DNA of 64,000 nucleotides, taken from the NCBI GenBank assembly GCA_902590465.1, contig CACIWX010000001.1:62001-126000 (forward strand), written 5' to 3'. Positions 2,603-44,920 of this stretch are shown here, in pieces (position 1 is the stretch's first letter; each line of letters begins with the position of its first letter). The position numbers were made by a program, and so were the translations under genes. Below the pieces are notes generated by a model. It ran no database searches. It was not told where the DNA came from and saw only the letters and a list, made by a program, of their open reading frames with translations. This stretch comes from an uncultured Pelagibacteraceae bacterium. Lineage in GTDB: Bacteria; Pseudomonadota; Alphaproteobacteria; Pelagibacterales; Pelagibacteraceae.

Positions 2603-4390
2603 TTATTCCCTATTTAGCTGACTTTTAAGCTTAATCAATTCAGAATAGGAGTTTTCGTCTAAGTTGTTAATTAGTTTCCGCTCTAAAGATTCTATCTTTC
2701 TTAAATTGCTTTGTTCTTTGTGATCTTTAAGCAATTCATCAAGAAGACTTGCAACCTCTTCTTCATTTTTGTTTTTTATTATTATTTTAATATTTGAATT
2801 TTCGTTTATCTCTCTAATAATTTTATTATAATCATTATTAATCTTTTTATTTATGGATTCGTTATCATTTCCTTCAATTAAGTAAGAGGTGATCTCTTTT
2901 TTTAAGCTCTCGTTTTTTTCAGCTAAAAATTCTATTTCCGATAAGTCTTCTAATTTTTTTAAAGCTATCTCTAAATAATTTAAAATAATGAACAGGATTG
3001 AAAACTCAATTATTTGTATTCTAGATAAATCTTTGCTTTTATAATGCAAAATTTTTGTTTCTTTAAGAATTTGAAAATCTTTTTTCTTTTTATACAAACT
3101 ATATTTATTATTTTGTCTTGAGGATTGAATTGGAGTTAATTTTTTAATTTTTTCAAGAAAATCTTCTAACACATACTTTTTGAGTGTTTCATCTTGAATA
3201 GAGTACGACAAGCCTTTAATTTCTTTCTCAAATTTTGAAATTTCATAAGGATTACTCTGATCAATTTTGCCAAGATGGTAATTCCAAACGAAAGATTGAA
3301 TTATTTCTTTTTCTTTCAATAAATTTGTTAATCCGTCTTTTCCTCTCTGTTTAATATAATCATCAGGATCTATTCCATCAGGCATAATAGAAAAATAAAT
3401 TTTATTTTTTTCGTTTATCAATGGAAATAATTTTTCTGCAATTCTTAAAGCAGCTTTTTGTCCACTTTCATCACCATCTAAACAAATAATTGGATTTGAA
3501 AAAAATTTCCATATCAAGCTTATTTGTCTTTCCGTCAGAGCTGTTCCTGAGTTAGCAATCACATTTTTAAAACCTGAGGAGTAAACACTCACAACATCCA
3601 TATAACCTTCTACAATTAAAACTTCATCTGTCTCTGATCTAGTATTTTTTGCTTTATCTAAATTAAAAATCGTACTTCCTTTTTTATAAAATTCTGTTTC
3701 TGGTGAGTTTATATATTTAGCTAATTTACTTTCACGAATAATTCTTCCTCCAAAAGCGATCGTTTCACCCATAATATTGTTAACAGGAAAAGTTACTCTT
3801 GAATTAAATCTGTCTATAAATTTTCCAATTTTATCATTTTTATAATACAGACCAGTTAAGTTAATTTCTTCTTCTGAATAATTTTTTAATAGCTTTTCGT
3901 AAAAATTATTTTGCCAAGGTACATATCCTAGCTGAAACTCATCAATTATATTTTTCTTTAGATCTCTTTTTAAAAGATATTCTAAAGCTTCTTTATTATC
4001 TGAACTAAATAATTGCTGATGAAAATGATTTGAATAATCTTTAAAAATATTTTTATAAGTCTGAAATCTAAGATCTTTTTTTTTATCAAAATTAGAAAAT
4101 CTATAAGGTTGCATTCCTGCCTCTGCTGCTAAAGCCCTCACAGCTTCTCCAAATCCTACAGATTTTGTTTTCATCAAAAAATCAAAAATATTTCCATGTT
4201 CACCGCTGCTAAAGCAATGATAAAATTCTTTTTCATCGTTTACAGTGAATGATGGACTTTTTTCATTCTTAAAAGGAGAGAGTCCAATAAATTCTTTTCC
4301 TCTTTTTTTTAATTGAACTGTTTTTCCTACAACTTGGGATACTTTTAATCTTAATTTTATTTCATCAAGATATTCTTTAGGATATTTCAT
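2603..4390 (-). CDS. dnaG: DNA primase
   Basis: The 595-residue protein makes RNA primers at the replication fork. The N-terminal zinc-ribbon domain (about 1-100) is present in outline, but three of the four zinc ligands of the E. coli type are replaced: S38, K41 and S62, with only C59 kept (GLSPFKNEKSPSF and YHCFSSGEHGN). The TOPRIM catalytic core is intact, with EVLIVEGYMDVV (E261) and ICLDGDESGQKAA (D305, D307). The C-terminal helicase-binding part is divergent and rich in lysine and isoleucine. From memory, zinc-ligand loss with an SPF...SSG pattern is common in alphaproteobacterial primases. Its start abuts the stop of yqeY. Confidence 0.97.
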   Translation of the reverse strand: MKYPKEYLDEIKLRLKVSQVVGKTVQLKKRGKEFIGLSPFKNEKSPSFTVNDEKEFYHCFSSGEHGNIFDFLMKTKSVGFGEAVRALAAEAGMQPYRFSNFDKKKDLRFQTYKNIFKDYSNHFHQQLFSSDNKEALEYLLKRDLKKNIIDEFQLGYVPWQNNFYEKLLKNYSEEEINLTGLYYKNDKIGKFIDRFNSRVTFPVNNIMGETIAFGGRIIRESKLAKYINSPETEFYKKGSTIFNLDKAKNTRSETDEVLIVEGYMDVVSVYSSGFKNVIANSGTALTERQISLIWKFFSNPIICLDGDESGQKAALRIAEKLFPLINEKNKIYFSIMPDGIDPDDYIKQRGKDGLTNLLKEKEIIQSFVWNYHLGKIDQSNPYEISKFEKEIKGLSYSIQDETLKKYVLEDFLEKIKKLTPIQSSRQNNKYSLYKKKKDFQILKETKILHYKSKDLSRIQIIEFSILFIILNYLEIALKKLEDLSEIEFLAEKNESLKKEITSYLIEGNDNESINKKINNDYNKIIREINENSNIKIIIKNKNEEEVASLLDELLKDHKEQSNLRKIESLERKLINNLDENSYSELIKLKSQLNRE

Positions 4391-40413: not shown

Positions 40414-41415
40414 TTAAAATAAAGTTGAAACTTGATTAAATATTCTTTTAGTAAAACTAGGAATAAATTCTTTATTATTTTTTAAAGAGTGCCAATTATA
40501 AGATTTTGGAATCTTATTTGAAAATTTATAATATAAATTTATATTAAGATTTAAGTTTGAAATAGAATTTTTATAATTTTTTAAAAATTTCCAATTTTTA
40601 TTTACTGTGTTATTTTCCATTTCTTTTATTAATGGTAAATTAAAATTTTTGAGAAATTTTATTTCATTCTTTTTTGTCAAAGCTATTTGTTTTTTTTTAC
40701 TCACATAACAAAAAATATTGTAGTTCATAACTTTTATTTTTCTTCTTTTATTATTTTTAATCTTATTTGACGATCTTAAATACCTACAACTTTTATTCAA
40801 ACAACATTGACTACATTTTGGGTCCTTTGGTCTACAAATTACGGCTCCGAATTCCATTAATGCCTCAACAAAATCAGAGTTTCTATTTGTATTGAAAAGA
40901 TTTTTTTTATTTAAATGAATTAACTTTTCGAAATTTATTTTTAACTCTTTTTTATTTAAATATCTTGCGAATACTCTTTTTACATTTCCGTCTACAGCTA
41001 TTGTGGGATAATTATAAATAAATCCTAACAATGCGTTACCGGTATAATCACCAACACCTGGTAACTTTTTTATTTCTTTTAAGGTATTTGGTAACTTTGA
41101 ATTGTACACTTTTACAAGTAATTTTACTGATGCCAAAAGATTCTTTGCTCTTCTATAATAACCTAAACCTTCCCACAACTTAAGAATTTGATTTTCATTT
41201 ATTTTGGATAGAGACTCGAGTGTCTTGTATTTATTTGTAAATTTATTGAAATAAGGAATAACTGTTTTTACTTGAGTTTGTTGTAACATGAACTCACTTA
41301 ATAGTCTGTAATAAAGCTTTTTTGGAGATTTTTTGCTAACACGCCAAGGTAAATCACGCTTGCTATTATCATACCAAGCTAGAATTTTTTTTGATAATGT
41401 TGGACTCAAATGCAT
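40414..41415 (-). CDS. mutY: A/G-specific adenine DNA glycosylase
   Basis: Removes adenine mispaired with 8-oxoguanine. The catalytic Glu is in SEFMLQQTQVKTVI, the helix-hairpin-helix is LPGVGDYTGNALLGF, and the catalytic Asp is in IAVDGNVKRVFARY. The [4Fe-4S] ligands follow the family spacing C-x6-C-x2-C-x5-C (CRPKDPKCSQCCLNKSC). The C-terminal domain is shorter and divergent. The frame is open to 41451, but the ATG at 41415 (333 residues) starts at the usual distance from the core. This start sits back to back with the dciA ATG as ATGCAT. Confidence 0.95.
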   Translation of the reverse strand: MHLSPTLSKKILAWYDNSKRDLPWRVSKKSPKKLYYRLLSEFMLQQTQVKTVIPYFNKFTNKYKTLESLSKINENQILKLWEGLGYYRRAKNLLASVKLLVKVYNSKLPNTLKEIKKLPGVGDYTGNALLGFIYNYPTIAVDGNVKRVFARYLNKKELKINFEKLIHLNKKNLFNTNRNSDFVEALMEFGAVICRPKDPKCSQCCLNKSCRYLRSSNKIKNNKRRKIKVMNYNIFCYVSKKKQIALTKKNEIKFLKNFNLPLIKEMENNTVNKNWKFLKNYKNSISNLNLNINLYYKFSNKIPKSYNWHSLKNNKEFIPSFTKRIFNQVSTLF

Positions 41416-41901
41416 AGTAAAAATAATAATAAAACTAAAACTTACATACAAGGACTTCGACCTTTTTCAAGTTCAATTCCTAAAACCCTTAAAAAGCACC
41501 TAAGAAAAGGTGGGTATAATTACTCAAATATTATAGATAGTTGGACAAAAATAGTAAGTAAAAAAATTTCGGATGTGTGTTACCCTATCTCTATCAAAAT
41601 GGGAAATAACATGAGTAACGGCAATTTGGTTTTAAATGTTGTTCATGGAAAAGAAATGGAAATTGAGTATCAAAAAAAAAATATAATTGATAAAATAAAT
41701 AGTTTTTTTGGATATAAATGTATTAGTTATATTACATTGAAAATCGTCCAAGAAAAAATAGATAGCAAAAATTTCAGTAAAGTTTTTCCAAAAATAAAAA
41801 ACTTTTCTAAAATTGAAGAAAGATTAAATAAAGTAGATAATAGTGAATTGAAAAATTCTCTTAACAATTTTTTAAAGGCATTCAATGAAAGAAATAAATA
41901 A
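41410..41901 (+). CDS. dciA: DciA/DUF721-family protein, probable replicative helicase loader
   Basis: A 163-residue basic protein. DciA/DUF721 members replace DnaC as helicase loader in most bacteria. The family N-terminal pattern appears as LKKHLRKGGYNYSNIIDSWT with the following WTKIVSKKISDVCYPISIK, and the core LVLNVVHGKEMEIEYQKKN matches the KH-like fold. The placement mutY-dciA-dsbA-smc is a conserved alphaproteobacterial order. Sequence conservation is low, so the function is inferred from family and context. Confidence 0.8.
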   Translation: MHSKNNNKTKTYIQGLRPFSSSIPKTLKKHLRKGGYNYSNIIDSWTKIVSKKISDVCYPISIKMGNNMSNGNLVLNVVHGKEMEIEYQKKNIIDKINSFFGYKCISYITLKIVQEKIDSKNFSKVFPKIKNFSKIEERLNKVDNSELKNSLNNFLKAFNERNK

Positions 41902-42475
41902 ATTTTTAAATATATTTTTTTTAGTTTTTATTGTTTTTGTGGTTCCGGCAAAAGGGAAAATATTAAGTATTGGAAATAATAATGCTAAAGTCACAGTAAA
42001 AGTTTTTTCCTCACTGACATGTCCTCATTGTGCAACTTTCCACAATGCTATTTTCAACAATTTAAAGAAAGATTATATTGATAAAGGTTTGGTTAAATTT
42101 GAACATCATGCTTTTCCATTAGATTTGGCAGCATTAAATGCTGAGGTCGTTATTAGATGTCAATTAAACAATGAAAAAAAATTTAGATTACTAGACGAAA
42201 TTTATAACAAGCAAAAATTATGGGCAATAGGATCAGACATTAATAAAATAAATGAATTAATTAAAAAGATTGGACTAGAGTTTGATTTAAGTAATGAAGA
42301 AATGGATATCTGTCTTAAAAATGATGCTGTTCAGGATGAAATTCTGGAGCAAAGAATTGAGGCTCAAAAGAAATATAAAATTGAGTCTACGCCAACTATT
42401 ATTATTAATGAGAAAAAGTATACTAGTAAAATTGATTATAAATCATTCAAAAAAATAATTGATAAAAATTTATAG
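41885..42475 (+). CDS. DsbA-family thiol-disulfide oxidoreductase
   Basis: A 196-residue exported thioredoxin-fold protein. A signal peptide is visible (hydrophobic FLNIFFLVFIVFVVPAKG, about 7-24). The redox motif is C46-P-H-C49 (SSLTCPHCATF), and the cis-proline is in IESTPTIIIN near residue 169. The CPHC active site is that of DsbA, an oxidant of periplasmic proteins. It is 17 nt into the end of dciA and its stop abuts the smc start, with no gap (TAGATG). Confidence 0.9.
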   Translation: MKEINKFLNIFFLVFIVFVVPAKGKILSIGNNNAKVTVKVFSSLTCPHCATFHNAIFNNLKKDYIDKGLVKFEHHAFPLDLAALNAEVVIRCQLNNEKKFRLLDEIYNKQKLWAIGSDINKINELIKKIGLEFDLSNEEMDICLKNDAVQDEILEQRIEAQKKYKIESTPTIIINEKKYTSKIDYKSFKKIIDKNL

Positions 42476-44920
42476 ATGAAATTTAAACAACTAGATATAA
42501 CAGGTTTTAAGTCTTTTTCTGAAAGGACCACTTTTTTAATTGAAGACGGGTTGACAGGAATTGTTGGTCCAAATGGTTGTGGTAAATCTAATATAGTAGA
42601 GTCTTTACGTTGGTGTATGGGAGAGAATTCAGCAAAAAGTATGAGAGGTTCAGGAATGGAAGATGTTATTTTTTCCGGAACTTCAAACAGAGCTTCCAAA
42701 AATATTTCAGAAGTTTCTTTGTTACTTGATAACCAAAATAAAGAATGCCCAAAGCAATATAAAGAATTTGATGAAATTTCTGTAAGAAGAAAAATAGAAA
42801 AAGATAAAGGTTCCAAGTATTTCATTAACGATAAAGAAGTGAGAGCTAGAGACGTTCAAACTTTATTTGCAGATTTATCAACTGGAGCACATTCACCATC
42901 CTTAATAAGCCAAGGTAGAATTGGACAATTGGTTACAGCAAAACCTATTGATAGAAAATCTATACTTGAGGAGGCAGCGGGTATATCTGGAATTCATGCA
43001 CGAAGACAAGAGGCCGAAACAAGGTTAAATGCAGCAGAAAATAATTTAAAGAGAGCGGATGAATTAAAGAAACAACAACAAAAACAACTTGATAATCTAA
43101 AAAAACAAGCTGAGGAAGCAACGAGATATAAAGAAATTTCAAGGGAAATAAAAAAAATTGAAGCAGGTTTATATTATTTAAAAATTAGAGAAATAGAAAA
43201 AGATAAAAAAATAATAATCGAAAAACTGGGTGAATTAGATGATGAAATTAGCGCTATAAATATAGATTTAAATCATAACAACACTCTTCTAGAGGAAGAG
43301 AATAAAAAACTTAAACCTCTCAGGGATAGAAAAATGGAAAGTGCTGCAAGTTTACAGAAACTTAACTTAGAAATTTCAAATCTTATAGAGGAGGAGACAA
43401 GAGTTAAAGCTCTTCAAGAAAAACTTGAAAAATCAGCTAAAACTATAGAGTCTGATCTTGAACGAGAAAAAAGTATATCACTAGATGCAGATTTAAACGA
43501 AAAAAGAATCTCTAAAGAAAAAGAAGAGCTTCTAAAAACAGAAAATGAGCTTCTAGAAGTAGAAACAAATTCATCAAAAGAATTAAAGAACGCAAAAATA
43601 CAATTAAATAATTTACAGGCAAAATTAGAAAAAATGTTAGATAAAATTGAAAGAGATATTGATGAAGACAAAAAATTATCTAAGAAAATTTTTAGAGAAC
43701 TAAAACAACTTGTTAAAAGCATTACATTATCACAAGAGGAGTACGCAGAAAAATTTGGAAAAGATAAGTCAATCCAAAGCGACTCTATAAAAAGAAAAGA
43801 ACGTATAAAAAATATAGATGTAGAATTAGAAAATTGGAGAAATTTAAGAGCTAATTCAGAAAAAATGACGAGTGACCTGACAGATCGTAAAAATAAATTG
43901 GTATCTGAATTAAATGAAAATCAAAAAAATCCTGAACGTATCGCAACTTCCAAAGGTCAAAATTTACAAAATTTAGAAAATACAAAAAAAAGAAATAAAG
44001 AAATTGAGAATGAATTAATTCAATCTGAAAAAAAATATAATGCTATAAATCAAAATATTAAAGAAATACAATTAAAACTATCTGGTTTAAAAGAAAATAA
44101 AGCTAGAAATGAAGCAACTGTAGAAGGAATAGACAACAGAAAAAAAGACCTTTTATACTCTGTAAAAAGTGAATTAAATATTGATAATGAAGAGTCTCTA
44201 CTCCCTCAGTCAGATTTAAATGATGTATCGCCTGAGAGTCTTCCTACTATAGAAAATCAATCTAAAAAGTCTGATAAAATAAAAAAACAAAGGGAATCTC
44301 TTGGATCGGTTAATCTTAGAGCAGACGAAGAAACGAAAAAATATGAAACAGAAATAAAAAAAATGGAAGATGATCGAGCTGATTTATATTCTGCAATAGT
44401 TAAACTAAAAGCAAGTATTGAAGAATTAAATCAAAAAGGAAGAGAGCGTTTGCTAGAGGCTTACACAAAGGTGAACAGAAAATTCAACGAAGTTTATACA
44501 AAATTATTTAGTGGAGGGACTGCTAAGATTGAACTTGTCGACTCAGAGGACCCGCTTGAAGCCGGATTAGAAATGTTTGTTTCTCCACCAGGTAAAAGAT
44601 TGCAATCAATCACTTTATTATCAGGAGGTGAACAAGCTCTAACAGCGTTATCATTAATATTTGCAGTTTTTTTAGTAAATCCATCTCCCATTTGTGTTTT
44701 AGACGAGGTAGACGCTCCATTAGATGATGCTAATGTTACTCGATTTTGTGGGCTGTTAGATGAACTCACAAAAATAACAAAAACAAAATTTATTATCATA
44801 ACTCACCATGCACTAACAATGTCTCGAATGCACAGATTGTATGGTGTTACAATGGCTGAACAGGGTGTGAGCCAACTAGTTTCCGTCGATCTACAAAAAG
44901 CAGAAGAATTAGTAGCTTAA
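42476..44920 (+). CDS. smc: SMC chromosome segregation ATPase, short form without visible hinge
   Basis: The two ATPase head parts are intact: Walker A GIVGPNGCGKSNIVESL (28-44), Q-loop SQGRIGQLV, ABC signature LLSGGEQALTAL (714-725) and Walker B ICVLDEVDAP (739-748), with D-loop and His-containing switch (ITHHALTMSR). Between them residues about 175-650 are continuous charged coiled coil. Length is 814 residues, against roughly 1150-1190 for usual bacterial SMCs. I see no glycine-rich globular hinge; residues 386-440 that link the two arms are lysine/glutamate-rich. The arm before the head keeps RESLGSVNLRADEE, typical of SMC. No frameshift or stop is visible. ScpA/ScpB are not in the window. 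Confidence 0.93.
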   Translation: MKFKQLDITGFKSFSERTTFLIEDGLTGIVGPNGCGKSNIVESLRWCMGENSAKSMRGSGMEDVIFSGTSNRASKNISEVSLLLDNQNKECPKQYKEFDEISVRRKIEKDKGSKYFINDKEVRARDVQTLFADLSTGAHSPSLISQGRIGQLVTAKPIDRKSILEEAAGISGIHARRQEAETRLNAAENNLKRADELKKQQQKQLDNLKKQAEEATRYKEISREIKKIEAGLYYLKIREIEKDKKIIIEKLGELDDEISAINIDLNHNNTLLEEENKKLKPLRDRKMESAASLQKLNLEISNLIEEETRVKALQEKLEKSAKTIESDLEREKSISLDADLNEKRISKEKEELLKTENELLEVETNSSKELKNAKIQLNNLQAKLEKMLDKIERDIDEDKKLSKKIFRELKQLVKSITLSQEEYAEKFGKDKSIQSDSIKRKERIKNIDVELENWRNLRANSEKMTSDLTDRKNKLVSELNENQKNPERIATSKGQNLQNLENTKKRNKEIENELIQSEKKYNAINQNIKEIQLKLSGLKENKARNEATVEGIDNRKKDLLYSVKSELNIDNEESLLPQSDLNDVSPESLPTIENQSKKSDKIKKQRESLGSVNLRADEETKKYETEIKKMEDDRADLYSAIVKLKASIEELNQKGRERLLEAYTKVNRKFNEVYTKLFSGGTAKIELVDSEDPLEAGLEMFVSPPGKRLQSITLLSGGEQALTALSLIFAVFLVNPSPICVLDEVDAPLDDANVTRFCGLLDELTKITKTKFIIITHHALTMSRMHRLYGVTMAEQGVSQLVSVDLQKAEELVA

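Follow-up and report, generated by a model that had tools for sequence, protein, structure and literature searches.

The hinge is commonly regarded as essential to SMC rings, and an Smc protein that has none raises the question of how a bacterial chromosome could be folded without it. Such a protein is encoded by the smc gene of an uncultured Pelagibacteraceae bacterium (assembly GCA_902590465.1, contig CACIWX010000001.1), within a stretch of 64,000 nucleotides that was analysed as a whole and is referred to below as the window. The gene is a single, uninterrupted ATG frame of 814 codons, whose product is designated P0001. A first-pass annotation of the window had described it as an SMC protein with intact heads and no recognisable hinge; the reading frame, the head motifs and a purpose-built hinge profile all bear out this description.

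The TIGR02168 Smc equivalog model gave 679.1 bits on P0001, above its cut-off of 567.35, the match being split into two stretches, the best of which covers residues 3 to 425. The ABC-type head is complete, with the Walker A motif at residue 31, the Q-loop at Q146 (in ISQGR), the LSGGE signature at 715 and Walker B at 739; the joint motif is LGSVNL at residue 609. The only cysteines are at positions 35, 47, 91, 740 and 758. Since none is found between 91 and 740, the CXXC zinc hook of Rad50/SbcC is absent from the P0001 sequence. The RecN equivalog model gave 35.9 bits for a cut-off of 407.85, and the Rad50 and RecN models listed did not exceed 36 bits, so that the Rad50-like variant envisaged in the first-pass annotation was not upheld. 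P0001 is the sole smc detected in its own genome (66% complete, 30 contigs) and is 89% identical to the Smc of the Pelagibacteraceae record AG-470-P13, an identity on which the assignment of the organism to SAR11 rests. Among the 26 rows spanning residues 1 to 814, a count that takes in the genome of P0001 itself, the frame is open in 25 and broken by an in-frame TAG in one. This single stop, in a record of the same genus (L004, genome G021), lies at query residue 392, near the tip, and could reflect a sequencing error. Divergence was compared in six same-genus pairs, the closest ones of equal length and with members in common: non-synonymous divergence (dN) at the tip was lower than synonymous divergence (dS) in all six and higher than the dN of the N-terminal arm in five. 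This pattern suggests purifying selection on smc. On the equivalog score, the conserved dsbA and mutY neighbours and the retained scpA and scpB genes, P0001 is a genuine smc gene.

The Pfam hinge model PF06470 gave no match at E≤10 either in P0001 or in the 66%-complete genome that encodes it. It scored above the cut-off in none of the 297 genomes of the order Pelagibacterales, 30 of which gave weak matches below it (E≤1). This model is weak in Alphaproteobacteria at large: it passed the cut-off in just 114 of 289 genomes of the class, 194 of which have an Smc match (1e-30). An alphaproteobacterial hinge profile was therefore built, trained on 42 long Smcs and checked on 12 held-out long Smcs, all of which scored between 147 and 184 bits. 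When it was applied to 75 short Smcs, five scored 79–177 bits and the other 70, a contig-end fragment (L121) being included among them, at most 1.6 bits. P0001 gave no hit, the best of 200 shuffles of its sequence reaching 3.5 bits. Neither PF06470 nor the built profile thus detects a hinge at residues 370–460, the interval in which a significant hit would, according to the first-pass annotation, have spoken against the observation. As a sole test, the Pfam model was discarded because it misses the Smc of AG-899-L06 (L143), whose hinge shows in the alignment and scores 103 bits. The hinges of AG-891-G06 (L119) and AG-893-E21 (L120) were recognised by the alphaproteobacterial profile itself, Pfam having given L119 a sub-cut-off 14 bits; these two are therefore not independent positive controls, whereas the 12 held-out Smcs are. 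L077 (family f142, 882 residues), a counterpart of L143, was considered as a further hinge-less case and rejected, both alignment and profile showing a hinge. Overall, a hinge domain is found in P0001 neither by Pfam, nor by the built profile, nor in the AlphaFold2 model, and the protein is classed as an orthologous variant of bacterial Smc and not as a canonical member.

Comparison with relatives of about 1,150 residues indicated how much has been lost. Alignment of the N-terminal part of P0001 ends between residues 352 and 485 according to the relative chosen, that of the C-terminal part begins at about 292–450, and the two overlap where coiled coil matches coiled coil. The net shortfall is about 340 residues, corresponding to the hinge and the distal arm; the absence of the hinge that had been proposed is confirmed, but the loss takes the distal arm as well. 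The AlphaFold2 model (35 sequences; mean predicted local distance difference test score (pLDDT) 79, predicted template modelling score (pTM) 0.48) consists of the heads and one long hairpin, with a helix at 251–396, a turn at 397–402 and a second helix at 403–483. A turn is therefore predicted within the Lys/Glu-rich linker (386–440) that had been noted at the place of the hinge, but it comprises only about six residues. The model of a sister-family Smc (L094; pLDDT 74, pTM 0.43) has no hinge either and shows a longer helical tip, in which helices 363–412 and 427–532 flank a low-confidence turn. With head boundaries that we placed at residues 158 and 643, and on which the arm lengths rest, the arms measure about 239 residues, versus about 345 in the long alphaproteobacterial L079 (1,156 residues, hinge 506–640; same head boundaries). 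Arm lengths of prokaryotic SMCs have been reported to show modes at 238, 341 and 515 residues (PMC5344682). A fold search with the model returned SMC-family structures at ranks 1 to 7, namely prokaryotic Smc heads with coiled coil at ranks 1, 4, 6 and 7 (5xei, 5xns, 5h68) and condensin and Smc5/6 at ranks 2, 3 and 5, followed by Rad50 (7zr1) at rank 8.

Conservation was then compared along the arms in windows of 40 residues, the neck (159–248) and the joint (599–638) being excluded from the ranking. A peak at residues 429–468 was seen both with 28 sequences from the genus and with a wider set of 41, and this stretch is a candidate arm–arm contact that could close the ring. At the expected hinge site, the tip shows the lowest conservation anywhere along the arms. 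Among 16 hinge-bearing Rhizobiaceae, the standout window besides neck and joint falls in the hinge (599–638, L135 numbering), while the whole hinge is no better conserved than the arms (entropy 0.87 versus 0.76 and 0.91). Little weight is therefore put on the variability of the tip.

The short architecture is found across the order. Among the matches listed for the 297 genomes, intact Smc frames have 798 to 868 residues and none is near 1,150, so that the longer Smc in close relatives that could have exposed P0001 as a deletion artefact was not encountered. Open frames have 814–823 residues in the genus of P0001, plus one of 804; intact frames have 862–868 in the sister family, and the other genera of Pelagibacteraceae have 798–835 or 857–864. 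Frames below 798 among the matches listed sit at contig ends, except that of G277 (538 residues, ten stops within the match). Independent records with the same architecture include Pelagibacteraceae single-cell genomes, as well as MarineAlpha6_Bin4 and SP38 (817 residues); in family f25, three genomes have frames of 806–820, and the one included in the tree groups with MarineAlpha6_Bin4/SP38. No relative of P0001 was found in viral contigs with a scan of six exact peptide patterns. Within Pelagibacteraceae, L097 and its relatives (798 residues) differ from L098 and its relatives (857 residues) by a gap of 59 residues, probably located at the tip, and the heads of L097 and L098 are sisters in the tree (100/99).

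Hinge-less Smcs were also found among Gammaproteobacteria. In the SAR86 order, to which the MED-G166 record belongs, 136 of 151 genomes have an Smc match, and the open frames among those listed fall into three size classes of about 729–759, 809–851 and 998–1010 residues. For comparison, 206 of 229 sampled gammaproteobacterial genomes have a match, most of the frames listed being of about 1,150–1,280 residues. Because the alphaproteobacterial profile gave just 10–24 bits on gammaproteobacterial hinges, a second profile was made, trained on two sequences only (L234 and L235). It scored 114–190 bits in 16 further rows, which represent all 12 further gammaproteobacterial genomes covering the region (four genomes twice; L220, truncated at a contig end and without the hinge region, stands outside this count). 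The same profile detected no hinge in 39 SAR86 rows (the 20 best matches plus 19 from a choice of 20 stretches covering the size classes, the twentieth, L210, having no SMC frame) or in two other gammaproteobacterial genomes, SP335 (L125/L214) and G916 (L215). The 995-residue SAR86 proteins (L194–L198, L213) have a peculiar organization, both arms being internally duplicated in the hairpin order N1-N2-tip-C2-C1, which resembles one arm hairpin inserted into the tip of another. Copies of the N-terminal arm scored 177–277 against a shuffle maximum of 63–82 in six of six proteins, and those of the C-terminal arm 213–302 against 59–77 in five of five (L195, without the second marker motif, being excluded). 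The 732-residue L192 is the sister of the 995-residue L194, and length switching seems to occur.

The number of hinge losses was addressed with a tree of 51 heads, comprising no Actinobacteria, in which P0001 lies among alphaproteobacterial Smcs. The no-hinge label takes four changes, at least three of which are forced by well-supported branches. A single loss is not rejected within the alphaproteobacteria (approximately unbiased (AU) test, p 0.324) and likewise within the gammaproteobacteria (AU p 0.217). The split between the two classes is supported at 100/100; at least two losses are therefore indicated, separate in alpha- and gammaproteobacteria. MarineAlpha6 groups with the short-armed, hinge-bearing L143, L119 and L120 (95/85; 81/79 in a smaller tree), and its placement is the least certain, owing to a long branch and to the odd letter make-up flagged for L092. 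The Smc head of L092 sits with those of MarineAlpha6_Bin4 and family f25 and apart from SAR11, although its record is titled Pelagibacteraceae bacterium SP38. L143, L119 and L120 have 866–881 residues and hinges of 79–103 bits; their arms are about as short as those of P0001 and, in the alignment, are truncated at roughly the same point, and their hinge stands where P0001 has its tip. Short-armed Smcs of this kind fit a succession in which arm shortening may have come before hinge loss. In L119 and L120, the first ATG of the smc frame is at 3981 and the match starts from 3501, with no ATG before codon 161, and another start codon seems to be used.

The locus shares its neighbourhood, through dsbA and mutY, with hinge-bearing alphaproteobacterial smc genes; the coordinates of these neighbours, whose names we assume, and of the parts of P0001 are collected in the table. 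ScpA and ScpB matches, separated by 73 bases, were found elsewhere in the genome, on a different contig, and the persistence of both genes, which had been suggested as a check, is thereby established. Over the 297 genomes of the order, Smc was detected in 266 and ScpB in 252 (140 and 137 in the best 150 assemblies). ScpA was detected in 12 of the 17 genomes with named loci, that is 11 of 14 hinge-less and one of three short-armed hinge-bearing ones; the hinge-less genomes with ScpA include those of SAR86, SP335 and MarineAlpha6. A hinge-bearing, alphaproteobacterial-like smc beside mutY, a DUF721-type gene and dsbA was also found in a record titled Mesoflavibacter sp. ih5 (L131). Mesoflavibacter is a member of Bacteroidota, and this assembly is probably mislabelled or mixed.

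Features of the smc locus in window coordinates. Synteny counts refer to alphaproteobacterial smc loci with flanks of up to 3.5 kb; gene names of the neighbours are presumed.
Feature	Position	Strand	Basis
mutY-like gene, syntenic marker	40414..41451	-	29/33 hinge-less, 37/45 hinge-bearing loci
DUF721-type gene upstream, syntenic marker	41410..41901	+	31/33 hinge-less, 16/45 hinge-bearing loci
dsbA-like gene immediately upstream, syntenic marker	41885..42475	+	smc flank in 32/33 hinge-less, 42/45 hinge-bearing loci
smc, hinge-less chromosome segregation protein SMC, 814 aa (P0001)	42476..44920	+	TIGR02168 679 bits vs cut-off 567
ATPase head, N-terminal half, residues 1-158, Walker A at 31	42476..42949	+	boundary chosen by us
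N-terminal arm, residues 159-396 (238 residues)	42950..43663	+	AlphaFold2 helices 171-247, 251-396
Tip region, residues 361-420, expected hinge site, least conserved arm part	43556..43735	+	entropy 1.39 vs 0.53 and 0.79 in arms; highest 40-residue windows
Hairpin turn, residues 397-402	43664..43681	+	AlphaFold2, block pLDDT 77 and 82
C-terminal arm, residues 403-642 (240 residues), LGSVNL at 609	43682..44401	+	AlphaFold2; end chosen by us
Distal arm stretch, residues 429-468, candidate arm-arm contact	43760..43879	+	most conserved 40-residue arm window outside neck and joint
ATPase head, C-terminal half, residues 643-814, LSGGE at 715, Walker B at 739	44402..44917	+	motif positions

Compared with bacterial Smc-ScpAB (e.g. 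B. subtilis Smc), P0001 shares the head and joint motifs, the accompanying scpA and scpB, the single detected copy and the alphaproteobacterial gene neighbourhood, and differs by its missing hinge and its shorter arms. The hinge fold is replaceable, since B. subtilis Smc carrying a Rad50 zinc hook instead of its hinge supports normal growth on rich medium (PMC5344682). That construct and P0001 are alike in being Smcs that dispense with the hinge fold, but the substitute dimerisation domain of the former has no recognisable equivalent in the latter. In an engineered core of Wadjet JetC, the elbow-to-hinge region (aa 348–686) was replaced by nine residues and the arms were crosslinked; plasmid cleavage, taken as loop extrusion, was kept, obstacle bypass was lost, and the core failed once the crosslink was reduced (PMC12647877). 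P0001, which lacks about 340 residues relative to long Smcs and has a short turn in place of the elbow-to-hinge region, looks like a natural version of this core, although the latter is man-made, crosslink-dependent and derived from another SMC complex, whereas P0001 is natural and chromosomal. According to the same source, hinges without a channel are found in MukB, Wadjet-II, Wadjet-III and Acetobacter Smc, and long arms tend to go along with them (511–512 residues in Acetobacter relatives). These proteins share the loss of the hinge channel with P0001, but the latter is devoid of the whole hinge and has short arms, which makes the MukB-like variant of the first-pass annotation a poor analogy.

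A hinge-less SMC has been described in a marine actinobacterial clade (Sussfeld 2025, PMC12153180), for which the authors weigh two explanations, a paralogue, deemed unlikely, and a lineage, as yet unknown, in which the hinge was lost. P0001 has the features given for that clade, with SMC heads, a coiled-coil hairpin and neither hinge nor CXXC, and both are found in the ocean with no regular Smc alongside. The comparison is one of descriptions, and the clade belongs to Actinomycetes, whereas the present proteins come from Pelagibacterales, MarineAlpha6-type alphaproteobacteria and SAR86. The term 'pelagibacter' is absent from the main text of PMC12153180, and full-text literature searches, outside whose scope lay most subscription papers and all bioRxiv preprints, showed no hinge-less Smc in SAR11 or SAR86 among the papers listed. 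The kind of protein is thus known; what is new, as far as these searches go, is that it extends through the SAR11 order and recurs in SAR86, and that short-armed relatives retain a hinge.

With slightly more confidence than doubt, we propose that P0001 is the chromosome-folding condensin of the organism, acting with ScpA and ScpB and reduced to a natural core-only form, in which the arms close the ring distally and obstacles are not bypassed. The heads would engage on ATP and be bridged by ScpA as in other Smcs, while the two arms would be held together distally, most likely via residues 429–468 below the fast-changing tip. The ring would then still close in the absence of a hinge, and the motor would extrude loops, having given up the hinge-gated bypass. 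A wider and more tentative proposal, for which we would claim not quite even chances, is that small-genome ocean bacteria (SAR11, MarineAlpha6-type alphaproteobacteria, SAR86 and, per the literature, Actinobacteria) have repeatedly dropped the hinge and use a core-only Smc-ScpAB closed by its arms near 429–468. Several points weigh against this core-only form. Arm crosslinking was required for the engineered Wadjet core to work, so that closure of P0001 without it is an assumption; the AlphaFold2 models, which are of monomers, have a pTM of only 0.48 for P0001 and 0.43 for L094; and the arms are short, hence the compensation by long arms proposed in PMC12647877 cannot apply. The conservation of 429–468 may come from packing within the monomer or from a partner, and the variable tip argues against a specific interface there. 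In addition, ScpA was seen in 11 of the 14 hinge-less genomes sampled for it, and no parS-like site was found within the window.

That a hinge-less SMC must join its halves in another way, as initially stated, is supported, provided that 'or not at all' is added. In the latter case the distal ends would never meet, and an open V, held by the ATP-engaged heads and the ScpA–ScpB bridge only, would not enclose DNA on the arm side. A tip without conserved fold, the low conservation of residues 361–420 and the retention of scpA and scpB are compatible with such a clamp; it nevertheless appears unlikely, as the Wadjet core is inactive once its arm crosslink is opened (PMC12647877) and the conserved residues 429–468 would call for another explanation. 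Alternatively, the helical hairpin of the tip might self-associate as a small bundle in place of the hinge, which we consider rather improbable. This would agree with the longer tip of L094, with Pelagibacteraceae Smc lengths of 798 versus 857–859, a difference apparently situated at the tip, and with an LSPKE motif near the tip in one SAR86 subgroup, missing from the other SAR86 rows examined; on the other hand, no part of the arms varies more within the genus than the tip, whose hydrophobic content (0.33) is close to that of the arm (0.31).

A repair ATPase similar to Rad50/SbcC or RecN would have much the same outline of head and hinge-less hairpin, in line with the rank of Rad50 7zr1 in the fold search, but the equivalog scores, the synteny, the co-occurrence of scpA and scpB, the lack of CXXC and the SMC-family structures filling the first seven ranks make this very improbable. 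That the hinge is provided by a separate polypeptide is hardly credible: nothing was found in its favour, and the PF06470 searches described above speak against it in the own genome and in the order, the sensitive alphaproteobacterial profile having been applied to Smc proteins and not to whole genomes. As for an artefact of the gene model or assembly, the fragmentation into 30 contigs could have raised this suspicion, but it has next to no likelihood given the same architecture in independent single-cell and metagenome records and the similar lengths of the frames listed for the order.

The hinge has been argued to be a gate for obstacle bypass, lying outside the extruding core (PMC12647877). 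An order with a hinge-less Smc constitutes a natural test of this claim, for which the short-armed hinge-bearing relatives offer a comparison. Hinge loss repeated in streamlined lineages, if true, would show what a minimal chromosome motor needs. SAR11 are among the most abundant marine bacteria, and some of their strains can be cultured. If our proposal is true, SAR11-type cells would fold their chromosomes without hinge-gated bypass of obstacles.

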